DNA of 64,000 nucleotides from Alphaproteobacteria bacterium. Lineage in GTDB: Bacteria; Pseudomonadota; Alphaproteobacteria; DSM-16000; Inquilinaceae. The notes below the pieces were generated by a model. The model had not been told where the DNA came from, did no database searches, and was given only the letters and a program-made list of their open reading frames with translations. Numbering within the stretch: position 1 is the first letter of the stretch; each line of letters opens with the position of its first letter. Below, one piece after another: positions 16,250-19,692 of this stretch. The DNA is taken from assembly GCA_028277405.1 (NCBI GenBank), contig JANQGH010000050.1:1-64000 (forward strand). The letters run 5' to 3'. The position numbers and the translations under genes are program-made.

Positions 16250-17356
16250 TTGTCTGACGACGTACCGAAGAGTCTCGACGCGGTCGACGCGGATTGGGTG
16301 GCGGGTGTTCTGCGTGCCCATGGGCACGAAACGTCGGCGATCACCGGCATGCGCATCGAGCCGCTAAGGGCGGAGAACAGCAGCGTGGCCCGGCTCCACC
16401 TTGCTGGCGCAACGGACCACTCGCCCGTGCCGCCGACCCTGTTTTTGAAGCTCTGCCCGTCTGGGCACGGTTTTCTTGGCGCGTCGGAACGGGCCTACTA
16501 CACGCGCGACTACGACGGGCTGTCCGAGGCGCCGATCGTATCCTGCTATGCTGCGGTCGGTCGGCGCGATATTGCGATGGCGGACAGTATCGGCGAGGGC
16601 TATGCGCTCCTGCTGGCCGATCTGGGCACGGATTTCGTCGACAACAAGCTGATCGAGCCGACCGACGCGCACGCGGCGTCCCTCGGCCGCGCGATCGGCA
16701 GGCTTCACGCCCATCGGTGGGGGCCGGACGCCGATCCGGAAGGCCCGCACGATCTGGATGCCGATTTCGATCGCTGTCTCGCGCACGTCTCGTCCGGGCT
16801 TGCCCCGGTTTTGGATGCTCTCGGCGATACGATCGATGCCGCCAGCCGCAAGCGGCTGCTGCTTGTGTTTGAGGAGGATGTCGCGCGCTTGTACGCCCGC
16901 GCGATGCAGGGGGCAGGCCTGACGCTGGTCCATGGCGACCCAAACCCGACCAATGTCCTCACACCCCGCGAGCCCGACGATGGGGGCAACCGGCAGCCGC
17001 TGTTCCTGATCGATCGTCAGCCCTTCGACTGGTCGCTGCGCCTGTGGCTCGGCGCCTCCGACCTCGTGCTGGCAAGCGTGCCCTACTGGTCCGTTGACGC
17101 GCGGCGCGCTCACGAAGGCGCGTTGCTGCGGGGTTATCATGCCGCGCTTCTCGCCGAGGGGGTGACCGACCATTCCTGGGACGCCCTCGTCGACGACTGG
17201 CGCGCCTGCCTCGTCCACGCGGTGCTCGTCGCCGTCGAGTGGGGCGCCGATCCCGCCACGCTGGACAGCATGCGCTGGCTTTGGGAGGCCCAGCTCACTC
17301 GCGCCCTGACGGCCCTGGACGATTGGGAACGGGGCGGCCCGCCAACACGGCTCTAG
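16250..17356 (+). CDS. Aminoglycoside phosphotransferase-fold kinase
   Basis: 368 residues, protein-kinase-like APH / EcKinase fold. The catalytic loop is LVHGDPNPTNVL near residue 226 and the metal-binding segment equivalent to the DFG motif is FLIDRQPFDW. The N-lobe shows LFLKLCPSG with the ATP-contacting lysine. Members phosphorylate small hydroxylated molecules; no antibiotic substrate can be claimed. The start is TTG 16250. Downstream lies the remnant of an MFS transporter in the opposite direction, so the gene appears to be alone on its strand. Confidence 0.82.
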   Translation: MSDDVPKSLDAVDADWVAGVLRAHGHETSAITGMRIEPLRAENSSVARLHLAGATDHSPVPPTLFLKLCPSGHGFLGASERAYYTRDYDGLSEAPIVSCYAAVGRRDIAMADSIGEGYALLLADLGTDFVDNKLIEPTDAHAASLGRAIGRLHAHRWGPDADPEGPHDLDADFDRCLAHVSSGLAPVLDALGDTIDAASRKRLLLVFEEDVARLYARAMQGAGLTLVHGDPNPTNVLTPREPDDGGNRQPLFLIDRQPFDWSLRLWLGASDLVLASVPYWSVDARRAHEGALLRGYHAALLAEGVTDHSWDALVDDWRACLVHAVLVAVEWGADPATLDSMRWLWEAQLTRALTALDDWERGGPPTRL

Positions 17357-17762
17357 CCCGATCTGAGTTGAAGGTGCGCAATGTCCCTGTCCGGCCGATG
17401 CCAGATCAGCAGGCCCGCGACCGATGACAGCGCCAGAAGCGCAATCAGCCAGAAGGCCGAGAAAAAGGTGCCGGTGGCTTGCAGGGCAAGCCCGGTCACC
17501 ACGGGGGCCAGAAAGCCGGCCAGCGCCAGGCCGCTGTTCATGATGCCCATGCAGGTGCCGGCGCTTTTGGGAACCACGTCGGTGATCACGGCGTACAAGA
17601 CCGGGTTGGCGCCAAGCGCCGCGGAAATGGCGACCGTCAGGCAGGCGACGGTGACGGTGATATCATGGACATAGGCAAGCGGCAGAATGGCGACCGCGAC
17701 GATCAGATGGGACACGGCCATGGGCACGCTGCGGGCGATCCGGGTGCGGGCGGCGGGGAGGG
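17353..17762 (-). pseudogene. 3' remnant of an MFS transporter
   Basis: On the minus strand this frame encodes the last four to five membrane helices of a major facilitator (AVSHLIVAVAILPLAYV, ISAALGANPVLYAVITDVVP, GIMNSGLALAGFLAPVVTG). No first half exists: upstream the frame passes a 23-bp sequence and enters the BrnA 3' region. The same 23 bp recur at 18622-18644, where the frame reads GLAPTLPAARTR, a plausible continuation of an MFS loop before TM7. A transporter gene appears to have been broken here and its 5' part lost or scrambled. Confidence 0.65.
17740..17762. repeat. 23-bp direct repeat, copy A
   Basis: Exact 23-bp match to 18622-18644, begins CCGGGTGCGGG and ends GGGAGGG. The copies are 882 bp apart and bracket the brnT/brnA pair. 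The bases on both outer sides differ. Copy A is inside the truncated MFS gene. Confidence 0.8.
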
Positions 17763-17801
17763 CTGCAGAGGAGAGTGTTGACCAGAATTGACGCGTCTCG
17801 A

Positions 17802-18158
17802 TCAGGATGCGTGCTTCCACCGGTCCATCGCATCCCGTAGCGCATCGTTGATCCGGCTTTGCCAGCCCTTACCCGTACCCCGAAAGTGCTCAACGATGTC
17901 GGGGTCGAGGCGCAGGGTGATCTGCTTCTTGGGCCGCTCCTTTCGCGGACGGCCGATCTTGGGCGGGTTGGCGACCAGGTCGGGCATGACCTCGCGCGCT
18001 GGCCGCATGGCGGCGAAATCCTCGTCGGTCAGGGGCGGGTTGTCCGGGTCGCTCAGCGCCGCCTCGGTGATGCGGCGGTCTTCCTCGTCGCTGATCTTGG
18101 CGATTTCCGCGCGTGCCCACTTGCTGAGCGGGCGCTGTTCAGGCTTGGTTTTGGTCAT
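17802..18158 (-). CDS. brnA: BrnA-family antitoxin
   Basis: 118 residues. The C-terminal half has the ribbon-helix-helix of BrnA antitoxins: RPKKQITLRLDPDIVEHF followed by GKGWQSRINDALRDAM. The N-terminal half is charged, as usual for the part that binds the toxin. ATG 18158 (MTKTKPEQRPLSKW) lies 20 bp inside the 3' end of the upstream BrnT frame, the standard toxin-first overlapping layout. BrnA neutralises the BrnT ribonuclease and represses the operon. The pair lies between two direct repeats in a broken transporter gene, suggesting acquisition. Confidence 0.88.
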   Translation of the reverse strand: MTKTKPEQRPLSKWARAEIAKISDEEDRRITEAALSDPDNPPLTDEDFAAMRPAREVMPDLVANPPKIGRPRKERPKKQITLRLDPDIVEHFRGTGKGWQSRINDALRDAMDRWKHAS

Positions 18159-18405
18159 AGGTTCGAATCTCTCTGACATTAGCTTTTCGCAAGCTGATCA
18201 CGCGGACATCGTCGCCCCGGATTGTGTAGGTCAGAACATGAAGCCGGCTGCCGATCTTGCCGATTGCCAGGTAGCGATCCTCACCGTAGTCGGTTCGCCT
18301 GTCTGCTACAATTAGCGCCGTTTTCCAGTCGAAACTGGTCGCGCTTTGAAAGGCGACACCATGCTTGGTGAGGTTGGTGGCAGCCTTTTCCTCGTCCCAA
18401 ATCAG
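18139..18405 (-). CDS. brnT: BrnT-family toxin with non-canonical start
   Basis: 88 residues from CTG 18405. The frame has BrnT hallmarks: IWDEEKAATNLTKHGVAF at the N-terminus, DYGEDRYLAIGKIGSRLHVL in the middle and RVISLRKANVREIRTYD at the end. BrnT is a RelE-fold ribonuclease that inhibits translation. The frame opens after a TAG at 18421-18423 and has no ATG, GTG or TTG before the conserved WDEEKA motif; only CTG (18405) or ATT (18402) could start a full-length protein, and no clear Shine-Dalgarno is seen. Either a rare start is used or the 5' end has decayed. The stop overlaps brnA. Confidence 0.8.
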   Translation of the reverse strand: MIWDEEKAATNLTKHGVAFQSATSFDWKTALIVADRRTDYGEDRYLAIGKIGSRLHVLTYTIRGDDVRVISLRKANVREIRTYDQNQA

Positions 18406-18972
18406 CGTCTGTTTATGTAACTACAAAAACCTGGTGATCAAGATCTGATGGAGTTTGGCGTATTGACTGCGCTGCGACGACGGAAAACAGCATAGTCAAG
18501 GTTGTCGGCGGCATGGCCTGTCGCCCTGCAACGCCGACTTCCAAGACCAAACACCGAGTTGGGCAGGACCATCAAGACTATAGACCGCCGCGACCTTCGT
18601 CGGCGTGGTGCTGCTGTCGTCCCGGGTGCGGGCGGCGGGGAGGGTCGGCGCCAAGCCGGACGCATGACGCGGGAAGCGTCCGGATGCGACCGTGTGACGA
18701 CGCGGCCGGCCCTGGCGATGGCGCGCGCCTGACGGCCCTGCCCCTGGGTCCGCCGAAGTCCGAGGTTGACGCACCGGTGCGATAGGGTCAAAAAGTTCGA
18801 ATTCTGGCAGTCGCCATCAAGACCGCTTCTTGGCCTTTCATAAAGGCGCTGGGCCGTTCCGGCCGCGATCGGTGACGGGTTTCCGGCCGTCGCACCGGCG
18901 ACCGGGCGCAACCCGTCGACGATCGGTTCGATCTGGGAAGTCGGCCTTTCCATCCGGAGCCGCAAGTCGACC
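18406..18972. other. Gene-poor 567-bp stretch with repeat and decayed sequence
   Basis: No convincing gene on either strand. It contains the upstream region of brnT, the second copy of the 23-bp repeat (18622-18644) and, on the minus strand to the right of that repeat, a short sequence (GLAPTLPAARTR) that could continue the broken MFS transporter. Beyond about 18665 the translation no longer looks like a transporter in any frame. The last 100 bp form the leader of the GT25 glycosyltransferase gene. Confidence 0.5.
18622..18644. repeat. 23-bp direct repeat, copy B
   Basis: Exact match to 17740-17762 in the same orientation. Together the two copies enclose the brnT/brnA toxin-antitoxin pair. 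Confidence 0.8.
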
Positions 18973-19692
18973 ATGGACGTCCTCGTCATCAATCTCGCGC
19001 GCAGTGCCGACCGCAGGGCGTTTATGGAGGCAGATCTTCGCCGGCTCGCGGTCGGCCATGAGTTCTTTCCGGCGATCGATGGCGCGACCGTCGACCGCGC
19101 GTCCTTTCCGCACTATAGCCGGGCAAGATGCCTGCGCCGGTTTGGCACTTGGCTCACCGACGGTGAATTCGGCTGTTTTGCCAGCCACTACCGCGCCTGG
19201 CAGGAGTGCGTGCGCCGCGGGGTGCCGATCGCTGTCTTGGAAGACGATGTGGAACTCTCGCCCGATTTTCCGCATGTCCTGTCCCTGGCCGGCCAGCGCA
19301 TCGATGCCTGCCGGCTGATCCGCCTCGCGGGGCTGTTCCCGCGGCCTTACCGGACGATCGAGAGAATCGACGGCTCTCACCGGCTGGTCCGCTTCTTGCG
19401 CGGCCCGGCCGGCACCCAATGCTATGCCCTTTCCCCCAATGCCGCCGGCGCGCTTGTGGCCCGGGCACGGCATTGGGTCGAGCCGGTCGACCTCTACATC
19501 GACCGGTTCTGGCTCCATGGCGTCGAAAGCAACGGCATACTTCCCTTTGCCGCCAAAGAGGTCGCTCAGCCGCCGTTCCGCGATGCGATCGGCGACCGCG
19601 ACAGCACGCGCTCGCTGTTCGGCAAGGCCCGCCGCGAGCTGTTTCGCATGACCGATGGCGTTCGCCGGACCCTCTATAACCTGACGCGTTGA
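18973..19692 (+). CDS. Glycosyltransferase family 25 protein
   Basis: 239 residues of the GT25 (LPS beta-galactosyltransferase-like) family. Evidence: VLVINLARSADRRAFM at the start, FFPAIDGATVD, GEFGCFASHYRAWQ (the conserved GCxxSH block) and the metal-binding LEDDVELSPDF. Such enzymes add sugars to lipopolysaccharide or glycoproteins. No other surface-polysaccharide genes are near, so it is an isolated transferase. Its end faces nadK across 286 bp that contain a strong hairpin. Confidence 0.88.
   Translation: MDVLVINLARSADRRAFMEADLRRLAVGHEFFPAIDGATVDRASFPHYSRARCLRRFGTWLTDGEFGCFASHYRAWQECVRRGVPIAVLEDDVELSPDFPHVLSLAGQRIDACRLIRLAGLFPRPYRTIERIDGSHRLVRFLRGPAGTQCYALSPNAAGALVARARHWVEPVDLYIDRFWLHGVESNGILPFAAKEVAQPPFRDAIGDRDSTRSLFGKARRELFRMTDGVRRTLYNLTR

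Follow-up and report, generated by a model that had tools for sequence, protein, structure and literature searches.

A brnT/brnA toxin–antitoxin pair between exact 23-bp direct repeats beside a truncated MFS transporter gene

A brnT/brnA module with an altered toxin start codon

In the BrnT/BrnA type II toxin–antitoxin (TA) system of Brucella abortus (PDB 3U97), the toxin gene comes first and is overlapped by the antitoxin gene. The RNase activity of BrnT requires the Lys and His residues of a KHG motif, as well as a Phe and a Glu (PMC10714953). The same gene arrangement is found in the window considered here, that is, the whole 64-kb stretch of alphaproteobacterial DNA that was analyzed, in which an 859-bp segment bounded by two direct repeats carries, on its minus strand, brnT followed by an overlapping brnA (Table 1). 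The BrnT and BrnA Pfam profiles are each covered over their full length, with the KHG motif retained, which bears out the first-pass annotation of the genes as a brnT/brnA pair. The open frame of brnT spans positions 18139-18420 and overlaps that of brnA at 18139-18179. In phmmer comparisons with solved toxin chains, BrnT matched 7VD7 (E = 2e-7) and 3U97 (E = 1e-4). Unlike in the described system, about 45 residues lying outside the Pfam model precede the antitoxin domain of BrnA, and an ACG replaces the ATG of brnT. On the evidence of these profile matches, the locus is a chromosomal brnTA type II module of an already known kind, in which BrnT is the predicted ribonuclease and BrnA its predicted neutralizer.

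Table 1. Features of the repeat-bounded segment and its left flank, in window coordinates
Feature	Coordinates	Strand	Evidence
MFS transporter, 3' third	17356..17742	-	PF07690, E 6.1e-10, profile 48-178/347
Direct repeat, copy A	17740..17762	+	Exact match; no third genomic copy; beyond chance
brnA, predicted antitoxin, 125 aa	17802..18179	-	PF14384, E 3.5e-27, 1-68/68
brnT, predicted ribonuclease toxin	18139..18407	-	PF04365, E 1.5e-25, 1-77/77, over cut-off
Non-coding stretch of lower GC upstream of brnT	18408..18621	.	No clear gene; ~200 bp
Direct repeat, copy B	18622..18644	+	Exact match; inside a stop-terminated open stretch of 28 codons

The stretch upstream of brnT has a GC content of 57% (positions 18421-18621), compared with 65.5% in the whole window. 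A promoter scan found nothing, and a short near-palindrome adjoining the brnT start, TGTAGTTACA, might be an operator.

The frame of brnT opens after a TAG codon with LHKQTLIWDEEK; from this upstream stop to the domain, ATG, GTG and TTG are all absent, a feature that the first-pass annotation had not pointed out. Paralogs in the same genome begin with ATGCTCACATGGGAC (contig C87) and ATGTTCACATGGGAC (contig C26) where the present locus has ACGCTGATTTGGGAC, and the N-terminus, MLTWDE or MFTWDE in the paralogs, reads TLIWDE here. Because the paralogs have ATG at the same place, the brnT start codon is taken to have changed from ATG to ACG; the toxin is still intact in frame, but its translation is probably weak or absent as a result. 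Judged by eye against the residues named in PMC10714953, the BrnT translation contains the motifs KHG, FDW and REIRTYD. Initiation at the ACG itself or at the next CTG is possible, as is a sequencing error behind the ACG. Toxin output may thus be low or nil while BrnA is still made. In any case, the missing usual start bears on the activity of this brnT copy and not on its descent.

The direct repeats and the truncated transporter gene

The repeat is a 23-mer, CCGGGTGCGGGCGGCGGGGAGGG, the two copies of which are identical, start 882 bp apart and constitute the longest exact repeat of the window; position, spacing and identity are all as first annotated. Since the 23-mer is a low-complexity sequence rich in G, a fortuitous match in GC-rich sequence had to be considered. 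In 20 second-order Markov versions of the window, the longest exact repeat within 2 kb was 17 bp, and none of 100 dinucleotide shuffles yielded a match to the 23-mer at three or fewer mismatches. A chance origin is hardly conceivable on these figures and is refuted at the level of the Markov windows and shuffles. At the same tolerance (≤3 mismatches), the 6.2-Mb genome contains no third copy, and the 23-mer is absent from the viral contigs searched. Weak similarity between the two copies extends a further 12 bp leftward (35 bp, 89%). In principle, recombination between the two repeats could delete the module.

Left of copy A lies what the first-pass annotation had called a broken minus-strand MFS transporter gene, and this description holds: the last third of such a gene is present, as approximately 130 codons without a stop or frameshift, whereas the first two thirds (~300 residues) are missing. 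The remnant is 46% identical to residues 304-423 of the intact L045 and L046 transporters (from two genomes of the class, G370 and G293), which it thus resembles over their last 120 residues while lacking the first ~300. Its alignment to these intact relatives stops at position 17742, which is the outer limit of copy A, and the match to the relatives' MFS profile begins at the same limit, at profile position 228 of 356. Since the MFS homology and the repeat share this boundary exactly, there is a real junction at the repeat. As the fragment has no stops, the break cannot be very old. When residues 1-304 of a relative were used as the query, the genome yielded 16 matches, none of them the missing 5' part; all are distant transporters, at most 31% identical, in whole-length frames of 405-560 aa. 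The frame of the remnant (17353-17820, minus strand) continues without a stop through the repeat and reaches a GTG within the terminal part of brnA; coupling with brnA could allow translation of this 155-aa fragment.

On the other side of the segment, a transporter loop had been predicted right of copy B, and this prediction fails. When the relatives' profile was run against all six frames of 17300-19100, only the left piece was recovered. The peak 17-aa hydropathy right of copy B is -0.18, against a value of 1.99 reached by the corresponding stretch of an intact relative, the hydrophobic helix expected upstream of GLAPT is missing, and these five residues are the only part of the predicted loop that falls outside the repeat. 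The in-frame joining of the flanks is textually right, in that 882 is a multiple of 3, the frames are in phase across the repeats and the joined sequence reads ...HASGLAPTLPAARTRIARSVPMAVSH. The 28-codon open stretch around copy B (18584-18669, plus strand) bears a weak resemblance to the C-terminal end of a LivM-type permease, and the copy B region has 35-bp matches of 91% in two genomes of the family. We rejected the presence of such a gene end here as too weakly supported, the protein score being reached by 1 of 500 shuffles.

An empty site was sought in relatives. None was found among 60 relatives, 385 class genomes, none of them of the same genus, and the genome_contigs collection, where the closest MFS homologs are 44-45% identical. 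In the 385 class genomes, nothing matched the neighboring gene (16250-17356) at E ≤ 1e-30. Phage records contain no similar DNA, and the plasmid matches to the region are short matches to brnA only.

Repeat-bounded brnT loci in the same genome

The genome contains five brnT loci, three of which (the present one and those on contigs C26 and C87) are bounded by direct repeats; these three are also the most alike in BrnA, with 64% and 53% identity to the locus studied. On contig C26 (L057:3982-5124), brnTA is located between two 122-bp copies of the 3' end of an AMP-ligase gene. These copies are 92% identical and 7 of their 10 differences fall at third codon positions, a pattern such as might be left after integration of homologous foreign DNA at the end of a gene. 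On contig C87 (L056:9393-11912), a type I-E CRISPR repeat occurs five times; brnTA lies between the first and second copies, and a helix-turn-helix gene resembling an antitoxin lies between the second and third. The gene beside this antitoxin-like gene reads by eye as a RelE-type toxin, although no Pfam match was obtained, and its start is cut at repeat 3; the last three repeat copies are separated by ordinary 32-bp spacers. The main CRISPR array (45 repeats) and the cas genes are located on contig C16.

The three loci might have been recent copies of one another, but the tree of BrnT proteins leaves them ungrouped and they are only ~60% identical. Moreover, homology among the loci stops at the coding region, leaving no mobile-element ends in common; together with the lack of grouping in the tree, this means that no single element has recently been copied to the three sites. 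In one genome of the family, the two halves of a brnT match in separate frames (L089 and L092, G016:C266:29646-29898), and this copy is an apparent pseudogene.

In other genomes, none of the 34 brnTA loci with usable flanks is repeat-bounded, and in control windows of the same genome the count is 3 of 317. The Fisher p value is 0.001 with the locus that prompted the comparison and 0.009 without it. It should be noted that this count is post hoc and small, comprising three loci with three repeats of different kinds. None of the three PIN-domain loci of the genome, a rough TA control, is bounded by repeats. We treat the pattern as a lead. One brnTA subfamily may have come repeatedly to lie between unrelated direct repeats, either captured by repeat-mediated recombination or stopping the loss of repeat-bounded DNA, but we regard this as quite improbable.

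Origin of the junction and comparison with known systems

We consider it about an even chance that the locus is a decayed rearrangement junction carrying brnTA, produced by short-homology or illegitimate recombination and not by the target duplication of a transposon. A DNA segment with brnTA would have been joined by this route to the 3' remnant of the MFS gene, the 23-bp repeat would be the footprint of the joining event, and the 5' two thirds of the MFS gene would have been lost in the same event or later; we infer this order of events. The ends of the cassette have no terminal inverted repeats, and, with frames judged by eye, the 859-bp segment contains no recombinase-like frame besides brnTA.

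The main rival, which we consider possible but doubtful, is the one proposed at first, namely, that brnTA entered an intact MFS gene, duplicating a 23-bp target, and that a later deletion removed the 5' part to the right of copy B. An exact repeat around a TA pair beside a broken gene would follow equally from a clean insertion and a later deletion, and the breakpoint at copy A, the exactness of the repeat and the phase of the frames across the repeats all fit this history. The proposal thus stands insofar as the gene is broken with its junction at copy A; it does not stand on the other side, where MFS sequence is absent right of copy B, which requires a second, separate deletion ending near that copy. 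Target duplications made by transposons are usually shorter than 23 bp, and the ends of an element are not seen. Alternatively, the 23 bp could be the core of an attachment site (attL/attR) left by a larger integrated element that has lost its integrase; the cores used by tyrosine integrases are usually repeats of about 20 bp. Besides the near-usual size of the core, this would agree with the position of another brnTA of the genome behind a duplicated gene 3' end, a mark of such integration. We nevertheless find an attachment site unlikely: no integrase is seen, no phage record resembles the region, the viral contigs hold no copy of the 23-mer, and copy A lies inside a gene rather than at a tRNA or gene end. 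A further explanation is that brnTA works as an addiction module, such that a deletable, repeat-bounded stretch survives as TA loss is punished. The frequency of repeat-bounded brnT loci in this genome, set against that in relatives and control windows, speaks for it. The abnormal start codon of brnT at the studied locus, the post hoc count of three with repeats of different kinds and the unbounded PIN-domain loci speak against it, and we judge it very improbable.

Collectively, the locus combines a real repeat, a real junction and a TA module of known kind with a seemingly crippled toxin gene, and is most likely the scar of an old rearrangement, a clean insertion being unproven. By itself this means little, small TA pairs being common in decayed gene neighborhoods. 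Should the repeat-bounded pattern hold in close strains, it would offer a testable case of chromosomal TA pairs that are captured by, or protect, deletable DNA. Compared with att-bounded TA islands, the segment described here is under 0.9 kb, has no integrase and is located beside a broken gene rather than at a tRNA or gene end; what it shares with them is that direct repeats flank, on both sides, a segment carrying a TA pair.
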